Counted from the stretch's first letter, positions 553 through 40,698 are shown. The stretch: DNA of 64,000 nucleotides from an uncultured Thermoanaerobaculia bacterium (GCA_951812325.1 OX638294.1:2210859-2274858), one strand, 5' to 3'. Notes: a model not told the origin generated them from the sequence alone. Numbers and translations: made by a program.

Positions 553-1970
553 CTTCCGTTCTCCCCATCAGCCACCAGGAGTCGGGCCAGACGGTAGATA
601 TCCCCGGCCCCGAGCGTCAGGATCATGTCGCCCTCGCGGACGGCCGCGCCGAGGCGCTCCGGGGCCATGCGCCAGGGGCCGCAACCCTGGACGCTGGTGT
701 GGCCGCCGCCGACCGCCGCCGCGACCACCAGACTCCCATCCACCCCGGGAAGCGGTTGCTCGCGAGACGGATAGATGTCGGTGACCAGGGCGTTGTCGGC
801 GAGCAGCAGGGCACGGCCGAAGTGGTCCGCAAGGTCCCGCGTCCGACTGAACAGGTGGGGCTGAAACACGGCGTGAAGGCGGCGCGGCCGCCCACCCTCC
901 CGCTTGAGATCCAACACTTCGCGAGCCGCCCGCAGGGTGGCCTCGACCTCGGTCGGATGGTGCGCGTAGTCATCGACCACGGTCGCTCCCTGCCAACTGC
1001 CGACGCGCTCGAAGCGCCGGTGAACGCCGGTGAACCCGGCCAGCGCATGAGCGGCCGTCTCGAAGTCGAGCCCGACCGCCCGCGCCGCGGCCACCGCCGC
1101 CAACGCGTTCAGGACGTTGTGTCGACCGGGCATCGGCAGTTCGAGCTGGCCGAGACGACCCGCGGCCGAATCGACGACCTCGAAGCGCACCCCCGCGGCA
1201 ACGGGCTCGACATGGAACGCCCGCAGATCCGCCCGGGCGCCGAACCCGTAGGTCACGATGCGCCGGTCCCCGAGGCGCAACAGGATGTCCCGCACGTTCC
1301 GGTCGTCCATGCAGGCGATGACCTGACCGAAGAAGGGAACCCGGCTGGCAAAGCGCACGAAGGCATCCTTGATGTCGGCCAGGTCGCGGTAGGTGTCCAG
1401 ATGATCGACATCGATGTTCGTGATCACGGCGACCACCGGCGCCAGATCGAGAAAGCTGCGGTCGAACTCGTCCGCCTCGGCAACCAGGTAGTCGCCCCTG
1501 CCGTGGCGCGCCCCCGTGCCGGACACACGGAGCCGGCCGCCGACGACGACGGTCGGGTCGAGACCCGCCCCGGTCAGTACGCTGCCCACCAGCGAGGTCG
1601 TCGTCGTCTTGCCGTGCGTCCCCGCCACGGCGATGCCGTACTTGAGCCGCATCAGCTCCGCCAGCATCTGCGCTCTGCGCACGATCGGAACGCCGCGACG
1701 ACGGGCCGCGACGACCTCTTCGTTGTCGGCGGGGACGGCCGAGGAAACGACGACCAGGTCGGCTTGCGCCACGTTCTCCGCGGAGTGGCCGAGAGAGACG
1801 GACGCACCGAGTTCAACCAGCCGCCGTGTCGTCCCGCCGGCCTGCAGATCGGAGCCGCTGATCGCCAGATCGTAGTTCAGCAGGACTTCGGCGATGCCGC
1901 TCATTCCGGCGCCGCCGATGCCCACGAAGTGGATCCGTTCGAGACCCGCGGTGCGCAGGAACAGCGGCAT
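549..1970 (-). CDS. murC: UDP-N-acetylmuramate--L-alanine ligase
   Basis: 473 aa, the usual MurC size. It adds L-Ala to UDP-MurNAc in the cytoplasm, the first amino-acid step of peptidoglycan precursor synthesis. Visible: the N-terminal Rossmann motif HFVGIGGAGMSGIAEVL, the Mur-ligase P-loop AGTHGKTTTT (about residue 110), the central-domain NIDVDHLD segment, and the MurC-typical DDYAHHPTE motif near residue 345. The ATG at 1970 shares one base with the murG stop (TGATG) and the stop overlaps the ftsQ start, so translation is probably coupled. A longer in-frame extension toward 3086 is only the shadow of murG and lacks family similarity. Very secure. Confidence 0.97.
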   Translation of the reverse strand: MPLFLRTAGLERIHFVGIGGAGMSGIAEVLLNYDLAISGSDLQAGGTTRRLVELGASVSLGHSAENVAQADLVVVSSAVPADNEEVVAARRRGVPIVRRAQMLAELMRLKYGIAVAGTHGKTTTTSLVGSVLTGAGLDPTVVVGGRLRVSGTGARHGRGDYLVAEADEFDRSFLDLAPVVAVITNIDVDHLDTYRDLADIKDAFVRFASRVPFFGQVIACMDDRNVRDILLRLGDRRIVTYGFGARADLRAFHVEPVAAGVRFEVVDSAAGRLGQLELPMPGRHNVLNALAAVAAARAVGLDFETAAHALAGFTGVHRRFERVGSWQGATVVDDYAHHPTEVEATLRAAREVLDLKREGGRPRRLHAVFQPHLFSRTRDLADHFGRALLLADNALVTDIYPSREQPLPGVDGSLVVAAAVGGGHTSVQGCGPWRMAPERLGAAVREGDMILTLGAGDIYRLARLLVADGENGR

Positions 1971-29851: not shown

Positions 29852-30829
29852 TCAGTCGACGCCGAAGGCGAAGACCCTCCCCGAGCCGCCGCTGATGCCA
29901 GGCCCGAAGAAGCCGAAGACCGCTGTTGCCTGACCACCGTGGAAGGCGTACTCGCCGGGCTCCAGCCTTTGCGACTTCACCTCGTACACACCCGGAACGA
30001 CCTCCGTGTACTCCACCTGCCGCAACTGCTTCGGCGGCGAGCCTCCCGAAGCTCCGGTCCAGGCGTTCATCTTGCCGGTGACGAAGGCGCGCTGATCCTT
30101 CTTCTTGCGTACATCGAGGGCGATCAGAGGGAACTCGGACGGGTTCACGGCGCCAGTCGTCTGGTAGGAGAGGCCTGCCTGAGTCTCCTCGAAGCAGAAG
30201 TAGAAGGTCGGCTGCCGCTGGCTCGTACGGACCGGTGAACGGGTGCCGGGGATCATCGCCTTCGCCTTCATCGACCTGATCCCGTAGGTCAGGCTCGAGA
30301 GCACTGGGCTGCCGGTCTTCGTCGCGGACGGCTGAGTCAGTTCCAAGTCAACCAGAGAACCCTCCTCGAAGAGGAAGATCCCAGGGCTCCTGCAGGGCGT
30401 TCCCTCGAAGTTCGAGGCGACATTGGCTACCTGCGACGCGCGCGTCGAGGTCACAACGTCGAGCGTACCCGCCCCCGCGGCTTCGCCGGCGGCCGGGGCC
30501 GGCTCAGCACCGGCGCTCGCCATGGCCTCCAGCACCTCCGCATCAACCTCGGCCTCGGAAAGCGCGACCAGGGCGTCGACCGACGTGTCGAAGTCCGCCC
30601 GGGAAGTCCTGATCTTGGCGACGATGACCGCCGCCGGAAGCCCGCTCTCCGTCAGTCGAACGACATCGTCGTTCGTCAGGACCTCGACCTCTTCCTGGCC
30701 GAGCAACGGCAGCGTGGACGCGACCAGAAGGACCAGCAAGCCAGACAGAATGAGAGCGAACCTCTTTCGCATGGCAGGCACGGCAACAGGAAGAACGAAG
30801 GAACGACGATTCGGCATTCGGCGAAGCAC
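29852..30829 (-). CDS. Secreted protein of unknown function
   Basis: 325 aa from a GTG at 30829, chosen because AAGGAG lies 8 bases upstream; a later ATG at 30772 (MRKRFALIL) lacks one. The signal peptide's hydrophobic core is at about residues 24-43, ending LLGQ. Residues 48-100 form a module, LTNDDVVRLTESGLPAAVIVAKI...DALVALSEAEVDAEVLEAM, that is common at the start of exported proteins in Acidobacteria-like genomes. The C-terminal half is beta-rich (PGVYEVKSQRLEPGEYAFHGG) and resembles a surface or periplasmic domain. No catalytic motif is evident. Confidence 0.75.
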   Translation of the reverse strand: MLRRMPNRRSFVLPVAVPAMRKRFALILSGLLVLLVASTLPLLGQEEVEVLTNDDVVRLTESGLPAAVIVAKIRTSRADFDTSVDALVALSEAEVDAEVLEAMASAGAEPAPAAGEAAGAGTLDVVTSTRASQVANVASNFEGTPCRSPGIFLFEEGSLVDLELTQPSATKTGSPVLSSLTYGIRSMKAKAMIPGTRSPVRTSQRQPTFYFCFEETQAGLSYQTTGAVNPSEFPLIALDVRKKKDQRAFVTGKMNAWTGASGGSPPKQLRQVEYTEVVPGVYEVKSQRLEPGEYAFHGGQATAVFGFFGPGISGGSGRVFAFGVD

Positions 30830-31030: not shown

Positions 31031-33049
31031 CTACTCGATGGGCGCCACTCCTCCGTCAGCAGACGCGTAGTCCACCTCGATCACCCGATCGAGACCGGCG
31101 ACTTCGACCGCCTGCCGGGCGCCGTCTGGCCAGATCACCTCCACGCGGTCCAGATCCGCGGCGGACGACACGCCGCCCAGGCCGATGGTCACGACGGGCT
31201 CGACCTGGCTCTGGTAGCTGCGGGTCGGCATGACGCGGCGGCGCTGGAGCACGGGGCCGACCGCGGTCCGATGTTCGACCTCCACCCACGCGCCGATCGC
31301 GTCGCGGTTCACATGCTCTCCATCGCCGCGAAGCCGGAAGCGCAGCCAGCGGTGCCCGGTCTCCTGGTCGTTGCGGAGCAGAAGCGGCCGGTCGCCGGTC
31401 TGCAGCAGCAGCACGTCGAGGTCGCCGTCGCCGTCGATGTCGGCATAGGTCGATCCTCGGCCCACCAGCTCGCGCGCCAAGCCGTCGCCTGCCTCCGGCT
31501 GCACGGGCACGAACGTCGACCCGGCATCGGGCCCGGCGTTCCAGAACAACTGCGGCGCCTGCCGGTAGCGCTGGCTGGGTTCCACGACCTCGATGTCGTC
31601 CTCCAGGTGCCCGTTGACCTGGAGCAGGTCGAGTCGGCCGTCCAGATCGTAGTCAAAGAAGAAGAGCCCGAAGCTAAGGACGCGGCGGCTCGGCGCACCG
31701 ACGCCGGCGGTGATCGCCTCGTCGCTCCACAGCGTCGGGTCGCCCTGGGACACATAGAGCGAGGTCATTTCGTTGGCGAAGTTGCCGATCGCGAAGCCGA
31801 GTTCGCCGTCGTTGCGGAAGTCGGCGGCATCGACGCCCATCGCCCCGGTGGCCGCGCCCTCGCGGCTGTAGGCGAGGCCGTAGCTTCCCCCCTGCTCGGC
31901 GAAGACGCCGCCGCCGTCGTTCACCAGCAGGAAGTTGCGCACCGTGTCGTTGGCGACCAGCACGTCGATGTCGCCGTCGCCCTCGATGTCCACCGGCGCC
32001 AGCCCCAGCGTCTTCGCCACCGGCGTTTCCGTGGCCGGGTTCAGGATGTGCATGCCGGCTTGCTCGGAGACGTCGGTGAACCTGCCGGCGCCGTCATTCC
32101 GGTAGAGGTCCATCGTCGTTCCGCCGTAGTTCAGCGGCGGTCCGTAGGCTCGGCCAACCCCGGTCAACTGGTAGCCGACCTCGATGTCGATCTCGCGCGA
32201 CCAGCGGACGTAGTTGCCGACCAGAAGGTCGAGGTCGCCGTCCCCGTCGGCGTCGAAGAAGGCGCTGCTGCTGCTCCACTCGGTCTCGGGTCCGGCGACG
32301 CCCGCCGTCGCCGTCACGTCCTCGAAGCCGACGCCCTCCCGGTTCCGGAACAGCCGGTTCGGGCCCACCGCGGAGATGAACAGGTCGACCCAGCCGTCGT
32401 TGTCCACGTCGCCGACCGCGACCCCGGCGCCGTAGAAACTCGTCGCGAGACCCATCCCCGCCGTCCGGTCGGCGAACCGGCCCGCGCCGTCGTTCTCGTA
32501 CAGCGCCATCGTGGGGCCGCTGCCTTCCGCGGCGCTCCACTCGGTCGAGTTGACGAGCAGCAGGTCCTGGTCGCCGTCCCGGTCGAAGTCGAAGAAGCTC
32601 GCGCCCGAGCCCATCGTCTCCGGCAGCAGAGCCTCGCCCTCGGCGCCGTTGACGTGAACGAAGTCGATACCGGCCTCCATCGTGATGTCCGTGAAGGGGA
32701 CGACCGGCACTTCGACGGCCGGGGCCGCCGGCCGCGGCGCCGCGACCGCGATCTCCTGTGCTTCCTCCGGCCCGGCCCGAAAGACGTAGCGCAGCGCGAC
32801 CACGAGCAGCGCGGCGACAGCGAGCGCCGCCAGCACCTGCAGCGAGCGGACGAAGACCCGCCCGATGACCGCGTCATCCTCGGCTACGAGTTCCTCCTCC
32901 GGCGACCCGGTCGGCACGTCGGTCGAGGGGCCGCCGGGAGAGTCCGCGTCGTTCCCGGCTGCGAGCTCCTCCTCCGGCGCCGGCGCCCCGGCGGCGTCCA
33001 CGGTCTCCGGTTCCTCCAGCGGCCCGCCGCCCGGCGATCCGGGGCTCAA
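31031..33049 (-). CDS. FG-GAP/VCBS repeat protein with ASPIC/UnbV domain (CRTAC1 family)
   Basis: 672 aa. An acidic N-terminus (about 1-65) precedes one TM helix (about 68-88), so it is membrane-anchored with the rest outside. Six or more Ca-binding loops of DxDxDGxxD type follow, for example FDFDRDGDQDLLL, GDVDNDGWVDLF, FDADGDGDLDLL and ADIDGDGDLDVL, forming an integrin-like beta propeller. The last about 70 residues (IGLGGVSSAADLDRVEVIWPDG...) are an ASPIC/UnbV domain. TTG start at 33049 overlapping the cytochrome gene's stop (TTGA), so the two are translationally coupled. Function of this family is unknown; interaction with the cytochrome partner is inferred from coupling. Confidence 0.88.
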   Translation of the reverse strand: MSPGSPGGGPLEEPETVDAAGAPAPEEELAAGNDADSPGGPSTDVPTGSPEEELVAEDDAVIGRVFVRSLQVLAALAVAALLVVALRYVFRAGPEEAQEIAVAAPRPAAPAVEVPVVPFTDITMEAGIDFVHVNGAEGEALLPETMGSGASFFDFDRDGDQDLLLVNSTEWSAAEGSGPTMALYENDGAGRFADRTAGMGLATSFYGAGVAVGDVDNDGWVDLFISAVGPNRLFRNREGVGFEDVTATAGVAGPETEWSSSSAFFDADGDGDLDLLVGNYVRWSREIDIEVGYQLTGVGRAYGPPLNYGGTTMDLYRNDGAGRFTDVSEQAGMHILNPATETPVAKTLGLAPVDIEGDGDIDVLVANDTVRNFLLVNDGGGVFAEQGGSYGLAYSREGAATGAMGVDAADFRNDGELGFAIGNFANEMTSLYVSQGDPTLWSDEAITAGVGAPSRRVLSFGLFFFDYDLDGRLDLLQVNGHLEDDIEVVEPSQRYRQAPQLFWNAGPDAGSTFVPVQPEAGDGLARELVGRGSTYADIDGDGDLDVLLLQTGDRPLLLRNDQETGHRWLRFRLRGDGEHVNRDAIGAWVEVEHRTAVGPVLQRRRVMPTRSYQSQVEPVVTIGLGGVSSAADLDRVEVIWPDGARQAVEVAGLDRVIEVDYASADGGVAPIE

Positions 33050-35874
33050 CCGCCGCCTCCGGCAACCCCCGCCCGGTCGCCTTCGAAGCGTTCGGGGCGG
33101 TGCAGGTCGTAGATCACGATCGCTTCCGCCGCATGATCGGCGGCCGGATCCGCCCGGCGCGCGACCGCGATCGCGCGGTCGCGGGCATTGTCGTCCGGCT
33201 TGTACTTCGCATGGAGGGCCTGGTGCCGGCCGGCCGCCTCGCGGTCACCGAGTTGGGAGTAGATCAGACCCAGGTTGTAGTGCGCGGTCACGTTCTCGGG
33301 GTCGATCCCGAGTCCGCGCTCGAACGACTCCCGCGCTTCATTGAGCCGTGCCGCCCGCGCATCGGCCCGGGCCGGCCCCCGCTCCCGCTTGGCGCGCTCG
33401 AACAGGGCCAGGCCGAGCTGGTTCCGGAGCCGTACGTCGCGGCTGAAGTCGAAGCCGCGGCGCCGCATCTCCTCGCTGTCGGCCTCGAGGATCGAGCGGA
33501 AGTTCGCGATCGCCTCGTCCACGGCGCCGTTCTGGAAGTTGACCAGCCCGGAGAACCAGGCCACCGACCACGGCGGCGCCGGCGGGTCGAAGGCGGCGGC
33601 CCGCTCGAGCGCCGCGATCGCGTCGTCGCTGACCGTGCCCTGGGCCAGGTAGACGCGGGCGAGGTTGAGCGGGCCGTCGGGACGGCCCAGTTCCTCGACG
33701 CGGGTGAAGGCCTCGATCGCCTGCCGCAACTCGCCGCGCCCCGTGCCGCCCTTGCGCAGCAGGCCGATGCCGTAGTCGTTCCAGCGCTGCCAGAGCGGCT
33801 TGGCGGGCTGGCGGATCCCGCCGTCCGGGCTGCCAGCGCCGACCGGGAAGGTCACCGTGTCCCGGGCCAGATCGAGGATCGGCAGCTCGTTGACCGTCTC
33901 ATCGCCGTAGATGTAGCGCAGGTACGTCGTGTCGAACTTGCGGTAGCGCAGCGCCGCCTCGACGGTCAGGCTGCCGGTGGCCGCTCCCGGCGGCACTTCG
34001 AGCCGGTAGTGAACCACGTCCCCCGCCCCCGGCGGGATCTGGTGGTTGTAGAGGGGCACGAAGATGTCCTCGGCATTGCGGCGGTCGATTCGCGCGCCGT
34101 CGCGGTCGAGCATGTAGACGTTGATGAAGTGCGACCAGGGATCGACCCGGTTGCCCTCGCCCAATCCCCCGCTGCGCCCCACCAGCGCGCCGCTGCCGTC
34201 GCGCACCACGACGTCGAGCCAGAGCTGGTTGGAGTCCGCCGTGCCCTGGGTCAGGTGATGTCCGAGCTCCAGGGTGCGTACCACGACCTCCAGCAGATAG
34301 GCCCCGCCCGCTTCGAGGGCCGGTATCTCCGGGCGCAGCGGCGCGATCAGCTCGTCCTCGATCGAGCCGCCGGGCTTGACGCCGAAGATGTCGACGTCGA
34401 CCACGCCCTCGTTGAACTCGCGGTGCGCCTCGATCACCCAGTCCGGGAAGTCGAGCAGATGGGGAATGGCGGTGTTCGCGGAGGGGAACAGGTGGTCGTG
34501 CACCTGGGTCAAGGTCGGCTCGTCGCTCTCCGGAAAACGGCGGGCGCCGAAGTCCTCCGACGGCAACAGCTCCATGTGGCAGCCGTTGCAGTCCGGCTCC
34601 GCCTTCGGCGGGTAATAGAAGCTCGCCACGCCGTGCCCCGACACGCCCGAAAGCAGGTGCGAGTCGTAGTGGTTCTGCCCGCGGAGGAACTTGTAGTGGT
34701 TCAGTTCCTCGGGCAGGTGGACCTTGTGGCACGTACCGCAGAACTCCGACGTCGCGTGGAGCGGCTTGAGGAAGGTGCGCTTGTGCAGCTCGGGCTTCGC
34801 CTTGACCAGCTGGTGGTTGACGAACTCGAGGAACGGCGAATCCGTGAAGGCGAACGGGTAGTGCTCCGGCTCCTCGATCGTGTAGTCCGCGTTGCCGCGC
34901 GGACTGTTCACGTGGGTGATCGAGTGACAGGACGTGCAGGTGAGCCCTGCCTGGGCCGCCGGCGACTCGACGTCGAAGTCCGGGTCGTCGAAGGCGCCCG
35001 AAAAGAAAATCACCGGATCGTGGCAGCCGGCGCAGAAGCGCGACGCCTGCACGTCGCCCGAACGCTCGTACGCCTTCTCGCGCGTCTGCTGGACCGAGAA
35101 GCTGTAGATCGGGTTGTTGAAGGAGCTCAACCGGTGCGCGCTGTAGGCCCAGCGGCCGTGGATGTCGGCGTGGCAGTCCGCGCAGTAGGCGTCGTTGTTC
35201 AGCGCCCGCTCCGGAATGAAGCCGCCGCTCGCCGTTCGGGCCAGCGAGGGGAAGAAGTACTCCTCGCCCGAGTCCGGCCCTTCCACGTTCCAGGCCCTCG
35301 GATCCTGGAACTGCAGCACCAGGGCGACTCCGACGAGGACCACGGCGGCGACCGCGACGCGCGCTCCGATCCGCCAGTTGATTCGCCTGCCGGCCAGCCG
35401 GTGCAGCACGAACAGCCAGGCCGCCACCAGCGGCGCCAGAACGTGGAGCCAGTAGGCCACGCCCCGGACCGCCGGGTCGTTCACCGTGATGACCCCTTCG
35501 ATCCGCGTCAGCACGATACCGCTGAACAGCAGCACGACCGCTGTTGCGAACAGTGCGTAGCCGACCCTCACCGCGCGCCGGTTCGGTCGATTCCGCGTGT
35601 TGCGCATGTGCGCCAGACCGAACCAGATCACCGGCACGACGAACAATCCCCCCACCGCCAGGTGGAGCAGGAACATCGAGATGTAGAACCAGTTCTGGTA
35701 CGTCTGACCGGTCGCCGCTTCCGCGACGCGGACGCCCGACAGGTAGAACGAGTTCACCGCCAGCAAGGCGAACAGACCGAAGACCACCCAAAGGAGCGGC
35801 TTCAGCCTCGGCCCGATCGCCGGTCGGTAACGCCGGCGAGCGGGCCGCCTGCCGCCGCCCGCGCCCGTCGTCAC
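33046..35874 (-). CDS. Five-heme cytochrome c with TM anchor and TPR tail
   Basis: 942 aa. Four TM helices (about 25-190) are followed by a periplasmic domain with five CxxCH heme sites: CADCH (about 230), CAGCH (about 280), CTSCH (about 312), CGTCH (about 372) and CNGCH (about 412). This resembles cytochrome c554-type multiheme proteins. A beta-rich middle (about 480-680) follows, then TPR-like repeats (about 740-910: RVYLAQGTVSDDAIAALERAA, AHYNLGLIYSQLGDREAA). Likely an inner-membrane-bound electron carrier with a protein-binding tail. GTG start at 35874 overlaps the stop of the PBP-like gene; its own stop overlaps the FG-GAP gene start. Confidence 0.9.
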   Translation of the reverse strand: MTTGAGGGRRPARRRYRPAIGPRLKPLLWVVFGLFALLAVNSFYLSGVRVAEAATGQTYQNWFYISMFLLHLAVGGLFVVPVIWFGLAHMRNTRNRPNRRAVRVGYALFATAVVLLFSGIVLTRIEGVITVNDPAVRGVAYWLHVLAPLVAAWLFVLHRLAGRRINWRIGARVAVAAVVLVGVALVLQFQDPRAWNVEGPDSGEEYFFPSLARTASGGFIPERALNNDAYCADCHADIHGRWAYSAHRLSSFNNPIYSFSVQQTREKAYERSGDVQASRFCAGCHDPVIFFSGAFDDPDFDVESPAAQAGLTCTSCHSITHVNSPRGNADYTIEEPEHYPFAFTDSPFLEFVNHQLVKAKPELHKRTFLKPLHATSEFCGTCHKVHLPEELNHYKFLRGQNHYDSHLLSGVSGHGVASFYYPPKAEPDCNGCHMELLPSEDFGARRFPESDEPTLTQVHDHLFPSANTAIPHLLDFPDWVIEAHREFNEGVVDVDIFGVKPGGSIEDELIAPLRPEIPALEAGGAYLLEVVVRTLELGHHLTQGTADSNQLWLDVVVRDGSGALVGRSGGLGEGNRVDPWSHFINVYMLDRDGARIDRRNAEDIFVPLYNHQIPPGAGDVVHYRLEVPPGAATGSLTVEAALRYRKFDTTYLRYIYGDETVNELPILDLARDTVTFPVGAGSPDGGIRQPAKPLWQRWNDYGIGLLRKGGTGRGELRQAIEAFTRVEELGRPDGPLNLARVYLAQGTVSDDAIAALERAAAFDPPAPPWSVAWFSGLVNFQNGAVDEAIANFRSILEADSEEMRRRGFDFSRDVRLRNQLGLALFERAKRERGPARADARAARLNEARESFERGLGIDPENVTAHYNLGLIYSQLGDREAAGRHQALHAKYKPDDNARDRAIAVARRADPAADHAAEAIVIYDLHRPERFEGDRAGVAGGGG

Positions 35875-37784
35875 GTGCTCGCCCCGGTCGCTCCGGCCAG
35901 CCGTGGCGGAACCCGGGACGCCGCGTCGATCTCCTCGCCGACGAGCCCGTCGAGCGCCCGCAAGAGCCGGGACGTCACGGCGTAGCCCGCGCGGCGCACC
36001 CGCCTCGAGGTCGGCTGGCCGGTAACCCGGACGGCGAAGGCGTACCGGGGCGGTTGCCCCTCGTCCGAAGGGAAGAAGCCGACATAGTTCACGTGGAACG
36101 GCTTGTCCGGGTCGCGCGCCGTACCCGTCTTCATCGCCACGCGGAGCCGCTCCGGCGCCACCCGGTTCGCCGTGCCGCCCGGCGACACGACGGCGCGCAT
36201 CGACTCGTGAAGCAGCGGCAGCCAGGACGGATCCAGCACCCGAACCCCCTGTCGCCGTCCGTCCCCGACCAGCGTCCGCGGCGAGATCCCCAGAAGTCCA
36301 TCCGCCTGCAGGACGAAGTTCGCCTCGCGGCGGCGGCCGTCGGAGAGGGTCGCCGCGAACAGAGCCGCCCCCAACGGCGTGATCGAAGCCTCGTCCAGAC
36401 CGATCGAAAGATTGCCGAGCTGCTTGCCAGGCTGCCGGTACTCATGCACCACGCCGACGGCGTTCCTCGGCACCGGTTCGCCGGCTCGCCCTCCGATGAC
36501 GAAGCCGTAGCGTTCATACTCCGCGACCAGTGCGCGCTCGCCGACGTCGATCGCCAGCCTGGCAAAGGCGACGTTGCAGCTGCTGGCCATCGCATGGGAA
36601 AGGCCCCGGAGCCGGCCGTTGATCGCGCTGCAGTAGAGCCGCTCACCGTCCATCAGCACCGAGCCGCGGCAGGTCATGTCGGCGATCTCCTGGTCGGGAT
36701 CGAATCCGGCCCGTATCGCCGCGGTCGTCGTGATCAGCTTGGCGATCGAGGCTGGTTCCCGCGGATCGAGGACGCTGTCGCCGCTCGACCGCCACCGGCG
36801 GCTACCGCTGCGGTTGCTCACCGCGGCCAGGACCGCGCCCGAGGGGACCTCCACGATCGCGATCGCACCCTCTTCCCGGCCCAGAGCCGTGTCCGCCGCC
36901 TCGCTCCAGGCCCGGTCGATCGTCAGGCGCAACGCTCGCGCACCGGCGGCGTCGCCGATCGCCCCCGGTCCCGCGGCGGCAAGGCCGGGAGGCTGGAGGG
37001 CGGGCGGCAGCAGGTGGGTCGCCAGCTCGACCGGCACGAGACCCGCGGGCAGATCCTCCTCCAGCGTCAATGACCGGTCGTCATTGATCGATCCCAGCGG
37101 CCGGCCCCGCCGATCGAAGAGCAGTTGCTGCACCCCCGAGGCGTCGACCTGTTGCGCCCGGCGCAGACGCCGCTCGAACGCCGACGCGGGAGGCGGTTCG
37201 ACCGCGGCCGCCTCAAGCCCTGATTCCCCGCCGGCTGCCTCGCGGGTCTGCTTCGCCGGCCCCGCCTGCGAGTCGCCGTGGGCCGCGTCCGGTTCCGATT
37301 CTCCGGCGGCAGCTTCCGCCGGCGCCTGGGCGTCGACTGCGCGGTTCAGGCCGAGCTCCACCCGGGCCGCGGCCAGCAGGGCGGGAGCAAGATGCGCCGC
37401 GTGGTCCTCGTAGAGCGTCGCCACTTCCCGCCACCGGCCCTCGCCGGCCGCCTGCCGGGCGGCCAGGCTGAGAAGTCCGGGGGCCCGACGGGCGAGTCGC
37501 TCGAAGCCCTGGCCGGCCGTTGCCGCGTCCGCCAGCGTCAGTTCGAGCCGCGCCTGGCCGAGCTGTAGCTGAACCCGCCACGCCGAGAAAGCAGCAACGA
37601 CGAGAACTGCCAGCAGCGCCGCCTGAACCCGGCGGCGCGGCGGCCACAGCGCACGCAAGACCTCGCGGAGAGGGATCCCTGAACGCGGACCCGCGGTGAC
37701 GACCCGGTCGACCCGGCCGCGCGGCGCACGTCTGCCGGCGCCTTCGCCCGCGCCGTGTTCAACGCTGTTGGGTGTACCGCTCAT
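35871..37784 (-). CDS. PBP-like transpeptidase, non-canonical
   Basis: 637 aa. A cytoplasmic basic N-terminus and one TM helix (about 52-72) precede an Ala/Glu-rich linker (about 135-200) and a transpeptidase domain. Active-site triad: S-I-A-K in EPASIAKLITT (about residue 340), S-C-N in MASSCNVAFA (about 398) and K-T-G in VAMKTGTARD (about 550). The usual PBP dimerisation domain is not obvious; instead there is a TPR-like N-terminal region. It sits between a sulfatase and a multiheme cytochrome, with an overlap (GTGA) to the latter, which is unusual company for a class B PBP. The Ser, Asn and Lys needed for activity are all there. Confidence 0.83.
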   Translation of the reverse strand: MSGTPNSVEHGAGEGAGRRAPRGRVDRVVTAGPRSGIPLREVLRALWPPRRRVQAALLAVLVVAAFSAWRVQLQLGQARLELTLADAATAGQGFERLARRAPGLLSLAARQAAGEGRWREVATLYEDHAAHLAPALLAAARVELGLNRAVDAQAPAEAAAGESEPDAAHGDSQAGPAKQTREAAGGESGLEAAAVEPPPASAFERRLRRAQQVDASGVQQLLFDRRGRPLGSINDDRSLTLEEDLPAGLVPVELATHLLPPALQPPGLAAAGPGAIGDAAGARALRLTIDRAWSEAADTALGREEGAIAIVEVPSGAVLAAVSNRSGSRRWRSSGDSVLDPREPASIAKLITTTAAIRAGFDPDQEIADMTCRGSVLMDGERLYCSAINGRLRGLSHAMASSCNVAFARLAIDVGERALVAEYERYGFVIGGRAGEPVPRNAVGVVHEYRQPGKQLGNLSIGLDEASITPLGAALFAATLSDGRRREANFVLQADGLLGISPRTLVGDGRRQGVRVLDPSWLPLLHESMRAVVSPGGTANRVAPERLRVAMKTGTARDPDKPFHVNYVGFFPSDEGQPPRYAFAVRVTGQPTSRRVRRAGYAVTSRLLRALDGLVGEEIDAASRVPPRLAGATGAST

Positions 37785-37807
37785 GTTCCAGCAGCGCAGC
37801 CGCCGAC

Positions 37808-39421
37808 TCAGAATATCAACTGCACCCACTCGCCATCGATTTCGGTGATCGTGGATCGCGTGCCGGGCAGGATCTGCTCGCTCGCCAGCGTGGCTCGCCA
37901 ACCGTCGAGCTCCGCTTCCAGGCGAGCGACGATCTCCGGTTGCTCCCCGGCCAGGTTGTCGAGCTCGCCGACATCCGCCTGCAGGTCGTAAAGGAAGGTG
38001 ACCTGGCCATGGGGCGAGTCGGTCGCCCAGCCACCCTCCGGCGGCTGGAGGCGGCCGTCCCGGCGCAGGTTCTCGGGGCGGAAGTCCGTGCGATTCAACT
38101 TGATCAGCTTGTACCGGGCGTCGCGGATCGCCAGGTTCGGGCCGGCCCGCCAGTAGAGGTACTCGTGCGGCGCGCCATCGGCCTCCCCGGTCATGTAAGG
38201 CAGCAGGTTCACGCTGTCTTCGGTCTCCGTCTCGTCCCCCGCCGCGGCGGTGAAGGTCGCCATGTAGTCGAGGGTGATCACAGGATCGTCGAACGTCTGC
38301 CCGCCCTGGATCACTTCCGGCCAACTGATGATGAAGGGGACGCGCACGCCGCCTTCGTGGTGATAGCGCTTGAAGCCGAACAGCGGTCCGTTCGAGCAGG
38401 CGTGGCCGATGTAGCCGGCGCAGCCGTTGTCGCTGGCGAAGGCAATCAGCGTGTTCTCGTACACGCCCTGCGCCTTCAGCGTCTCCACGACGCGGCGCAC
38501 GCTCTCGTCGAGCGACGCGACCATCGCCGCGTAGACCCGGGTGCGCGGATCCTCGATGTGGCGGTAGCCGTCGAGGTACTCGGCCGTGGCCTGGAGCGGC
38601 GTGTGCGGCGTCGTGTGGCTCAGGTAGAGGAAGAAGGGCTCTTCCCCGCCCGCGCTGCGCTCGATGAAACCGGTCGCCTCGTCGGTGAACACGTCCGTCA
38701 GGTAGCGCTCGACCTTCTCCTCCGCGAAGCCGCGCAGGACCTTGTTCCGCCGCTCCGTCGGCCCCTCTTCGCCACGAATCGAGCCGTACTCGACGCCGGG
38801 CAGCCTGGAGTCGATGAAGATGCTGCCGCCTTCGAGCACGCCGAAGTACTCGTCGAACCCGCGGCTCATCGGATGGTGGGGATCCGGGTGGCCCAGGTGC
38901 CACTTGCCGATCATCCCGGTGCGGTAGCCCAGCGCCTTCAGCCGGTCGGCCAGGGTCGCCTCCTCGAGGCTCAACCCGGCGCCCACGTCCCGGCCGGCCG
39001 GGTTGAACTCCCAGCCGTGACGCTGCTGGTGGCGCCCGGTAATCAGCCCCGCGCGCGACGGGCTGCACACCGGATGGCTGACGTAGCCCGCCGTGAACAG
39101 AACGCCGCTCGCCGCCAGCGCGTCGATGTGCGGGGTCGAGATGATCTCGCTGCCGTAGATGCCGATGTCGCCGTAGCCGAGATCGTCCGCGAGGATGAGA
39201 ACGATGTTCGGCGGACCGGCGCCGGCATCCTCCGCGGGGGCATCGGCGTCGGGCGCGGCGCACGCGGCCAGGATGGCTGCCGCAGCGAGCACCGTGGTGA
39301 GGCGAATCGTCGTCAGTGGCAGGGAACGACTCTGTCCCTCGACGACGCTGCCCTCAGCCTGCGGCCCGGCGTCACCTTCCCGTGCATCGGCGCGGCGCGG
39401 ACGCCGCGACTCGTGTTGCAT
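37808..39421 (-). CDS. Sulfatase lipoprotein (arylsulfatase family)
   Basis: 537 aa. Start at the ATG at 39421, which has GGAGGGAGG 6 bases upstream. A predicted lipoprotein: hydrophobic stretch about 38-53 with the lipobox ILAAC. The sulfatase fold begins PPNIVLILADDLGYGDIGIYG (metal Asp-Asp, about 70-90). The formylglycine site is C-S-P-S-R in VCSPSRAGLITGR (about 118-130), followed by GKWHLGH (about 173) and ASDNGCAGY (about 325). It hydrolyses sulfate esters, probably in the periplasm, after maturation by a formylglycine-generating enzyme not found in this window. It is the first gene of the four-gene unit, 23 bases before the PBP-like gene. Confidence 0.9.
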   Translation of the reverse strand: MQHESRRPRRADAREGDAGPQAEGSVVEGQSRSLPLTTIRLTTVLAAAAILAACAAPDADAPAEDAGAGPPNIVLILADDLGYGDIGIYGSEIISTPHIDALAASGVLFTAGYVSHPVCSPSRAGLITGRHQQRHGWEFNPAGRDVGAGLSLEEATLADRLKALGYRTGMIGKWHLGHPDPHHPMSRGFDEYFGVLEGGSIFIDSRLPGVEYGSIRGEEGPTERRNKVLRGFAEEKVERYLTDVFTDEATGFIERSAGGEEPFFLYLSHTTPHTPLQATAEYLDGYRHIEDPRTRVYAAMVASLDESVRRVVETLKAQGVYENTLIAFASDNGCAGYIGHACSNGPLFGFKRYHHEGGVRVPFIISWPEVIQGGQTFDDPVITLDYMATFTAAAGDETETEDSVNLLPYMTGEADGAPHEYLYWRAGPNLAIRDARYKLIKLNRTDFRPENLRRDGRLQPPEGGWATDSPHGQVTFLYDLQADVGELDNLAGEQPEIVARLEAELDGWRATLASEQILPGTRSTITEIDGEWVQLIF

Positions 39422-39491: not shown

Positions 39492-39501
39492 CCGCGCTGC
39501 C

Positions 39502-40698
39502 ATGACGTCCGAAGCCGCAGGCCAACCGGCGCCTCCCGATCTGCCGGCCTCGGTGCACCGACTCGAACTCGACGAACGCGAGGTCTTCCTGGTCGGCACC
39601 GCGCACGTGTCGCCGCAGAGCGTCCGCGACACGAAGGAAGCGATCGAGACACTCGAACCCGACACCGTCTGCGTCGAACTCTGCGAGGCCCGCTACCAGA
39701 ATCTGGAGAACCAGGATTCCTGGCGCAAGCTGGACATCTTCCAGGTCCTGCGCGAGGGCAAGGCGGCGCTCCTGCTCAGCTCCTTCCTGATGCACTCCTT
39801 CCAGCGGCGCATCGCCCAGCGTTTCGGCATCGAGCCCGGCGCCGAGATGCGCGAGGCGATCGCCCGGGCCCGCGCACGCGGCGCCCGCCTCGAGCTGATC
39901 GATCGCGACATCCAGATCTCGCTGAAGCGCACCTGGTCCTCGCTCGGCTTCTGGCAGCGGACGAAGGTGATGACCCAGCTCGTCGGCAGCGCCTTCGTCG
40001 GCGACGACCTGAAGGAGGAGGACATCGAAAAACTCAAGGACACCGGCAACCTGACCGACCTGATGTCCGCCCTCGCGGAGGCCTTGCCCAGCGTCAAGGA
40101 CACCCTGATCGACGAACGGGACGCCTACATGGCCGAGAAGCTGCGCCAGTCGGCCGGCCCGCGCACGGTCGCCGTCGTCGGCGCCGGGCACCTGCCCGGC
40201 ATCACCGGCCTCGCCGACTCCAAGTGCGACCTCGAGAAACTTGAGACGGTGCCCGACCCTCCAGTGTGGCCGCGTGTCGTCGCGTGGCTCGTGCCGATCC
40301 TGATCATCGGGCTGTTCGCCTACGGCCTCGTCTGGGGCGACCGGGAGCGCACCGTCGAATCGGTCTACATCTGGGTCGGGCTCAACGGCGGTCTGGCCGC
40401 CCTCGGCGCCGCCATCGCCATCGCCCACCCGCTGACGATCCTGTCCGCCTTCGCCGCCGCGCCCCTGACCAGCCTGAATCCCCTGATGGCGGCCGGCTGG
40501 GTCGCGGGACTGGTCCAGGCCCTGCTCCGCAAGCCCCTGGTCGCCGACCTGGAGAACCTCGCCGACAGCCTGAGTTCCGTCCGCGGCTTCTGGAGCAACC
40601 GCCTCACTCGCATCCTCCTCGTCGTCGTCCTGTGCAACCTGGGCAGCGTGCTGGCGACTTTCATCGCCGGCTCATGGATCGTCGCCCGCACGATCTGA
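39502..40698 (+). CDS. TraB/PrgY-like membrane protein
   Basis: 398 aa. The N-terminal domain has the TraB/GumN/PrgY signatures VFLVGTAHVSPQSV (about residue 28) and DTVCVELCEARYQNL (about residue 55), with GAGHLPGI near residue 230. The C-terminal third has about four TM helices. The family includes PrgY, which limits pheromone activity in enterococci, and eukaryotic TRABD proteins; a metal-dependent protease role has been proposed. Here a housekeeping membrane function is likely but unproven. The ATG at 39502 follows a -10-like box closely. It is alone on the plus strand, divergent from the sulfatase. Confidence 0.85.
   Translation: MTSEAAGQPAPPDLPASVHRLELDEREVFLVGTAHVSPQSVRDTKEAIETLEPDTVCVELCEARYQNLENQDSWRKLDIFQVLREGKAALLLSSFLMHSFQRRIAQRFGIEPGAEMREAIARARARGARLELIDRDIQISLKRTWSSLGFWQRTKVMTQLVGSAFVGDDLKEEDIEKLKDTGNLTDLMSALAEALPSVKDTLIDERDAYMAEKLRQSAGPRTVAVVGAGHLPGITGLADSKCDLEKLETVPDPPVWPRVVAWLVPILIIGLFAYGLVWGDRERTVESVYIWVGLNGGLAALGAAIAIAHPLTILSAFAAAPLTSLNPLMAAGWVAGLVQALLRKPLVADLENLADSLSSVRGFWSNRLTRILLVVVLCNLGSVLATFIAGSWIVARTI

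Follow-up and report, generated by a model that had tools for sequence, protein, structure and literature searches.

We analysed a stretch of 64,000 nt from an uncultured Thermoanaerobaculia bacterium (GCA_951812325.1 OX638294.1:2210859-2274858), here called the window, and followed up a block of four minus-strand genes at positions 31031-39421, which encode, head to tail, a sulfatase, a penicillin-binding protein (PBP)-like protein, a multiheme cytochrome and an FG-GAP/ASPIC protein of the CRTAC1 family (Table 1). The genome measures 4.63 Mb, its nearest named relatives among the matches listed were uncultured Thermoanaerobaculia and Holophagales-labelled metagenome-assembled genomes (MAGs; Acidobacteriota), and its genus, going by record names and general knowledge, is presumably sponge-associated. 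Open reading frames and Pfam matches bore out a preliminary description of the block, including the 23 bases between the sulfatase and PBP-like genes and the GTGA and TTGA stop/start overlaps that join the others. Pfam labels above cut-off were Sulfatase (PF00884, 200.6 bits), Transpeptidase (PF00905, 82.9 bits), FG-GAP_3 (PF13517, 116 bits) and UnbV_ASPIC (PF07593, 59.7 bits), as well as Cytochrome_C554 and TPR for the cytochrome frame. The sequence AGGAGGGAGG lies just before the ATG of the sulfatase gene. All 20 congeners examined retain both overlaps, so the overlapped arrangement is not due to chance; promoter and terminator scans of the locus were uninformative. The same description had listed four exported proteins, which needs refining: only the sulfatase has the look of an ordinary exported (lipobox) protein, and the PBP-like protein (one helix), the cytochrome (five) and the CRTAC1 protein (one) are predicted to be membrane-anchored, with their large domains outside the cytoplasm.

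Across 103 non-redundant cytochrome loci, whose open reading frames we clustered, CRTAC1 was the only widely shared gene family besides the cytochrome itself, and it lay directly downstream. A hidden Markov model search of translated frames placed CRTAC1 within 900 bases downstream in 82 of the 95 loci in which this could be tested, and within about 2.3 kb in two more. The commonest spacing between the two genes was a 4-base overlap, other phyla included. For planctomycete loci, drawn evenly from the phylum, the automatic criterion found an adjoining CRTAC1 in 24 of 28 cases, and by-hand inspection added L186 and L216, where CRTAC1 sits in a long open frame that the distance rule had missed (26/28). 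The pair was likewise kept in all six testable loci of a divergent lineage with about 40% identity. Several genomes of the window's order in which the linkage has been lost still hold a CRTAC1 of 56–61% identity elsewhere. Counting order genomes outside the genus, 25 had a strong cytochrome together with a strong CRTAC1, one had the cytochrome only and 13 had neither strong form (Fisher P = 1.7e-9, without kinship correction), and some of these 13 hold the divergent 40% pair. Distances between cytochromes and between their CRTAC1 partners also correlated (r 0.76), as shared descent alone could bring about. What lies upstream of the pair varies (by-eye naming gave, among others, ketoacyl synthase-like, GTP cyclohydrolase-like and nitrilase-like genes), and therefore no substrate could be read from the context.

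The CRTAC1 protein in the window consists of a cytoplasmic N-terminal motif (DDAVIGRVFVRS), one membrane helix, an FG-GAP propeller and an ASPIC/UnbV domain. A motif like DDAVIGRAFRWS ahead of the membrane helix was present in 51 of 56 paired CRTAC1 proteins and in none of 17 unpaired ones. In a tree, the paired proteins form one clade apart from their paralogues, save for a few label changes; the excess of such changes appears to come from loci with a slightly displaced or duplicated gene (L064, L122, L159). We know of no function assigned to CRTAC1/ASPIC proteins in bacteria, although they are numerous both in the window's genome, which has 13 matches to the ASPIC domain, and in its relatives. 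Several loci further encode a TPR, FG-GAP and ASPIC protein of about 1,000–1,300 aa directly upstream of the cytochrome (L125:5015-8365, L121, L130, L131, L140, L154 and L155, and also L091, L092 and L096). Many of these are planctomycete and some are Thermoanaerobaculia-type loci, with the gene sometimes lying behind several CRTAC1 paralogues, and the protein may be a third subunit in some lineages.

The cytochrome carries CXXCH motifs at residues 231, 281, 313, 379 and 429, which are invariant in 42 aligned relatives, as are four histidines outside these motifs (H71, H89, H144 and H158). An AlphaFold2 model (mean predicted local distance difference test score (pLDDT) 81.6) comprised five helices (25-55, 62-93, 99-123, 134-160 and 167-188), heme and beta domains, and the TPR array. 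Counts of positive residues per loop (7, 0, 4, 1, 4, 1) predict an N-in topology with the heme domain outside. In helices 2 and 4, H71 and H144 sit some ten residues short of the outer end, and H89 and H158 near the inner end, a topology that fits a membrane di-heme b layout. Judging from the sequence and the predicted helices, the pairs H71/H144 and H89/H158 most likely hold two transmembrane b-hemes between two helices running in the same direction. A search of the PDB with the whole cytochrome was dominated by TPR matches, and a viral fold search likewise returned mostly TPR-type proteins. With a truncated model of the non-TPR part, the top Foldseek match was 5ze8, the pentaheme cytochrome c552 of Thermochromatium tepidum (E 1.8e-8, 517 columns, template-modelling (TM) score 0.56 by target), which is also the best sequence match of the cytochrome outside TPR proteins. 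The membrane domain and the TPR array are additions to a pentaheme c552-type plan.

Comparison with known systems would place the pair among the multiheme quinone-linked cytochromes, which are already known as a kind. According to a study of cable bacteria (PMC11976967), cytochrome c552, which has no clear assigned function, is a structural relative of a pentaheme family that includes ExtKL and Gsu2801 and is equipped with an Ig-like domain. This PHC family (ExtKL and Gsu2801 of Geobacter, sPHC and lPHC of cable bacteria, and c552) shares with our cytochrome the five CXXCH motifs (present in 42/42 aligned relatives of our cytochrome) followed by an Ig-like beta domain, with the pentaheme fold and the succeeding beta segment found on a moderate-confidence model. 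In contrast, the descriptions of its members include neither a membrane domain nor TPR (PMC11976967), whereas the cytochrome here adds five N-terminal helices, four invariant histidines, a C-terminal TPR and a CRTAC1 partner. Its score of 24.3 bits with the curated ExtKL model, set against a cut-off of 250, makes it a fold relative of ExtKL and not ExtKL itself. CbcL, MtrH and MtoC also unite multiple c-hemes and a membrane domain, possibly with b-hemes, in one polypeptide (PMC6295460). In CbcL, however, the c-hemes come first and a usually six-helix HydC/FdnI-like part with three conserved histidines comes last, which is the reverse of the order seen here (membrane helices 25-188 before the hemes, five helices, four histidines), and homology is not implied. 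ImcH and NapC/NirT resemble our protein in having an N-terminal membrane part before periplasmic c-hemes, but ImcH of Geobacter combines three helices with six CX2CH motifs and a single CX3CH (PMC6295460), and the NapC/NirT Pfam model matched only one of the 42 cytochrome members (E 0.001). As for the partner, CRTAC1 genes adjoin hydrazine-synthase-like clusters, so that an FG-GAP protein is again encoded beside heme-enzyme genes (PMC12758564); the neighbour there, by its description, is a hydrazine synthase homologue and not this cytochrome. Human cartilage acidic protein 1 (PDB 9etn) shares the FG-GAP propeller and the ASPIC domain, and the bacterial partner differs from it in its cytoplasmic N-terminal motif, its membrane helix and its own clade.

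The cytochrome itself was found in 59 of 60 relatives (any match with E<=0.001) and is near-universal in the window's order, at about 65–70% identity across most of the order outside the genus. In total, at least 589 genome-contig stretches were confirmed by tblastn. Outside the order its distribution is patchy, with identities of about 50–70% across Acidobacteriota, Planctomycetota, Verrucomicrobiota and others. At a strict threshold, 23 of 297 Acidobacteriota and 37 of 246 Planctomycetota genomes from an even draw contained it, and the matches listed also included Verrucomicrobiota and MAGs labelled Pseudomonadota, Gemmatimonadota and Latescibacterota. Planctomycetes bacterium Poly30 (L120) is a complete, named genome with the pair. 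Ten genomes that we checked had one strong copy each. Both Planctomycetota and Acidobacteriota are split in the cytochrome tree, for which horizontal transfer is a possible explanation, although MAG labels and paralogy limit this reading. A second, shorter family of about 700–760 aa (G025:C88, G033:C141, G059:C269, G028:C430 and others) has about 30% identity to the membrane, heme and beta parts of the cytochrome, not to its TPR, and is possibly a paralogous group. In two draft congeners (L057 in G017 and L058 in G020) the cytochrome gene is seemingly split into two frames, either by assembly error or as a pseudogene.

Our preferred interpretation, in which we place slightly better than even confidence, is that the functional unit consists of the cytochrome and CRTAC1 and acts as a conduit for electrons between the quinone pool and the periplasm, CRTAC1 being its dedicated partner. 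Five helices would seat the cytochrome in the inner membrane, where the two predicted b-hemes would reach from one face to the other and pass electrons to or from the quinone pool. On the periplasmic side there would be five covalent c-hemes in a c552/ExtKL-like fold, followed by the beta domain and the TPR superhelix. The CRTAC1 propeller, which has a membrane anchor of its own, could then dock on this periplasmic part, probably on the TPR platform, to position or gate a periplasmic electron partner. The fuller proposal of a respiratory module present in several phyla, in which a quinone-linked cytochrome with seven hemes (two b and five c) binds its dedicated membrane-anchored CRTAC1 through the TPR, sometimes with an additional TPR-FG-GAP-ASPIC subunit encoded immediately upstream, is more tentative, and we rate it a little short of an even chance. 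Several observations weigh against the conduit. The 103 loci were picked by similarity to the window cytochrome, CRTAC1 is missing from the contig in 11 of the 95 testable loci, a distant class-level lineage of 41–43% identity lacks CRTAC1 beside the cytochrome, and the co-occurrence statistic is inflated by shared ancestry. In addition, the pairing of the b-heme histidines rests on sequence positions and topology and not on coordinates, no Pfam family above cut-off spans the membrane part, a quinone site cannot be named, and the truncated model behind the match to 5ze8 was weak (pLDDT 67).

The main rival explanation is that the pentaheme domain is a terminal reductase, in which an open heme site would receive electrons from the membrane part and reduce a small periplasmic oxyanion of nitrogen, sulfur or selenium, with CRTAC1 as a structural subunit. 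Its fold relatives include ExtKL, weak matches to the ExtKL model occurred in 32 of 42 members, sPHC and lPHC have been listed among cytochromes that have a pentacoordinated heme and may be catalytic (PMC11976967), and the invariant non-CXXCH histidines H364, H373, H461, H539 and H622 could be catalytic. Nevertheless, the heme domain offers five or more further histidines of high conservation (H247, H338, H364, H373, H402, H461 and H484), enough to give each of the five hemes bis-His ligation, and no match to a known reductase reached its cut-off. We regard this activity as unlikely. Another idea, extracellular electron transfer in which the pair would supply an outer-membrane porin-cytochrome conduit, is prompted by a layout reminiscent of CbcL and ImcH, which have been proposed as quinol oxidases in metal-reducing bacteria (PMC6295460). 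We judge it improbable: the MtrB/PioB porin, found in 17 of the 60 genomes of the set, was absent from the window's genome and the 20 congeners, all of which have the cytochrome (other porin types were not searched). This lack of MtrB/PioB in the genus tells against Mtr-type extracellular transfer in particular. Finally, the two genes might be neutral neighbours with neither physical nor functional coupling, as some lineages, in which the cytochrome has no CRTAC1 beside it, might suggest. Tight spacing that recurs in several phyla and in the 40% divergent lineage, the retention of the CRTAC1 partner in many unlinked genomes, and an N-terminal motif specific to the partner CRTAC1 all speak against this, and we give it hardly any credence.

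The preliminary description had also suggested that all four proteins may form an undescribed system for envelope-linked electron transfer or for extracellular-polymer processing. The electron-transfer idea found support for the cytochrome and CRTAC1, whose association is conserved in several phyla, and none for the set of four. Within the genus, the four-gene order was kept in the 20 congeners wherever the contig allowed, with the PBP-like and sulfatase genes upstream of the pair, so the block is not confined to one genome, as the description had considered. Outside the genus, no PBP or sulfatase orthologue adjoined the cytochrome within the order. Seven genomes, belonging to two families, encode orthologues of the PBP-like protein (45–48% identity), which have unrelated neighbours and are not linked to the cytochrome. 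Of 25 order relatives outside the genus in which a sulfatase orthologue was sought, only 1 had it, on a separate contig; we take both genes to be separately conserved in unrelated contexts, the other outcome that the description had envisaged. We consequently rejected a four-gene system, because the PBP and sulfatase genes do not stay with the pair beyond the genus. Comparison among genomes indicates that only in this genus did they come to lie upstream of it, and they are best read as co-transcribed, lineage-specific neighbours and not as subunits. We therefore consider it very improbable that all four proteins make up one envelope system that processes sulfated polymer or peptidoglycan, despite the uniform order and tight junctions throughout the genus and the resemblance of the sulfatase to carrageenan sulfatases, which would make an activity on sponge matrix plausible. 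Not only do the PBP orthologues of other families lack a neighbouring cytochrome or sulfatase, but the cytochrome–CRTAC1 pair also persists in other families and phyla in the absence of both, and a polymer-processing pathway joining the four found no support.

Taken individually, the sulfatase has the sulfatase fold and the C-x-P-S-R motif (CSPSR) of S1 enzymes, and its closest solved structures are carrageenan S1 sulfatases. Congeners hold paralogues 50–54% identical to it, and the window's genome (G000) has about 30 sulfatase loci, as well as its 13 ASPIC-domain matches, in 4.6 Mb. The PBP-like protein shows the features of class B PBPs (transpeptidase domain, SxxK, SxN and KTG), yet it scored 79.3 against the 455 cut-off of pbp2_mrdA, far under the PBP2/FtsI equivalog cut-offs. 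As the weakest of the genome's four PF00905 transpeptidases, two of which are much stronger, it appears to be a fourth, divergent one. The strongest also lies in the window. A small gene downstream of CRTAC1 is found in part of the genus, and a divergently oriented membrane protein gene adjoins the sulfatase gene in many congeners (Table 1).

Table 1. Features of the four-gene block and its surroundings in the window.
Feature	Position	Strand	Description
S1-type sulfatase	37808..39421	-	537 aa; lipoprotein-like signal; CSPSR formylglycine motif; PF00884 200.6 bits
PBP-like D,D-transpeptidase-fold protein	35871..37784	-	637 aa; one N-terminal membrane helix; SIAK, SCN, KTG
GTGA stop/start overlap, PBP/cytochrome genes	35871..35874	-	kept in 20/20 congeners
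Cytochrome	33046..35874	-	942 aa; five transmembrane helices, pentaheme c, beta-sandwich, TPR
Cytochrome domains (residues)	transmembrane 25-188; pentaheme c about 200-490; beta-sandwich about 492-679; TPR 694-916		mainly helical heme region
TTGA stop/start overlap, cytochrome/CRTAC1 genes	33046..33049	-	kept in 20/20 congeners
CRTAC1-family FG-GAP/ASPIC protein	31031..33049	-	672 aa; TTG start; PF13517, PF07593
Protein downstream of CRTAC1	29852..30829	-	325 aa; signal-like N-terminus; no Pfam match
TraB/PrgY/GumN family membrane protein	39499..40695	+	divergent from sulfatase
Strongest PF00905 transpeptidase of the genome	9843..10754	-	652-aa frame

In the cytochrome–CRTAC1 pair we seem to have a membrane unit for electron transfer that has not been described before. 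We found no description of it in the literature searched, which is weak evidence given that few subscription papers were covered, and for CRTAC1/ASPIC proteins together with multiheme cytochromes the search returned the anammox paper alone (PMC12758564), the nearest precedent. A one-to-one partner cytochrome that recurs across phyla offers a concrete handle on the function of CRTAC1/ASPIC proteins. If our interpretation is correct, electron-transfer partner would be, to our knowledge, the first role assigned to a bacterial CRTAC1/ASPIC protein, and a quinone-linked conduit of this kind would constitute an overlooked respiratory branch common to many uncultured marine and sponge-associated bacteria.

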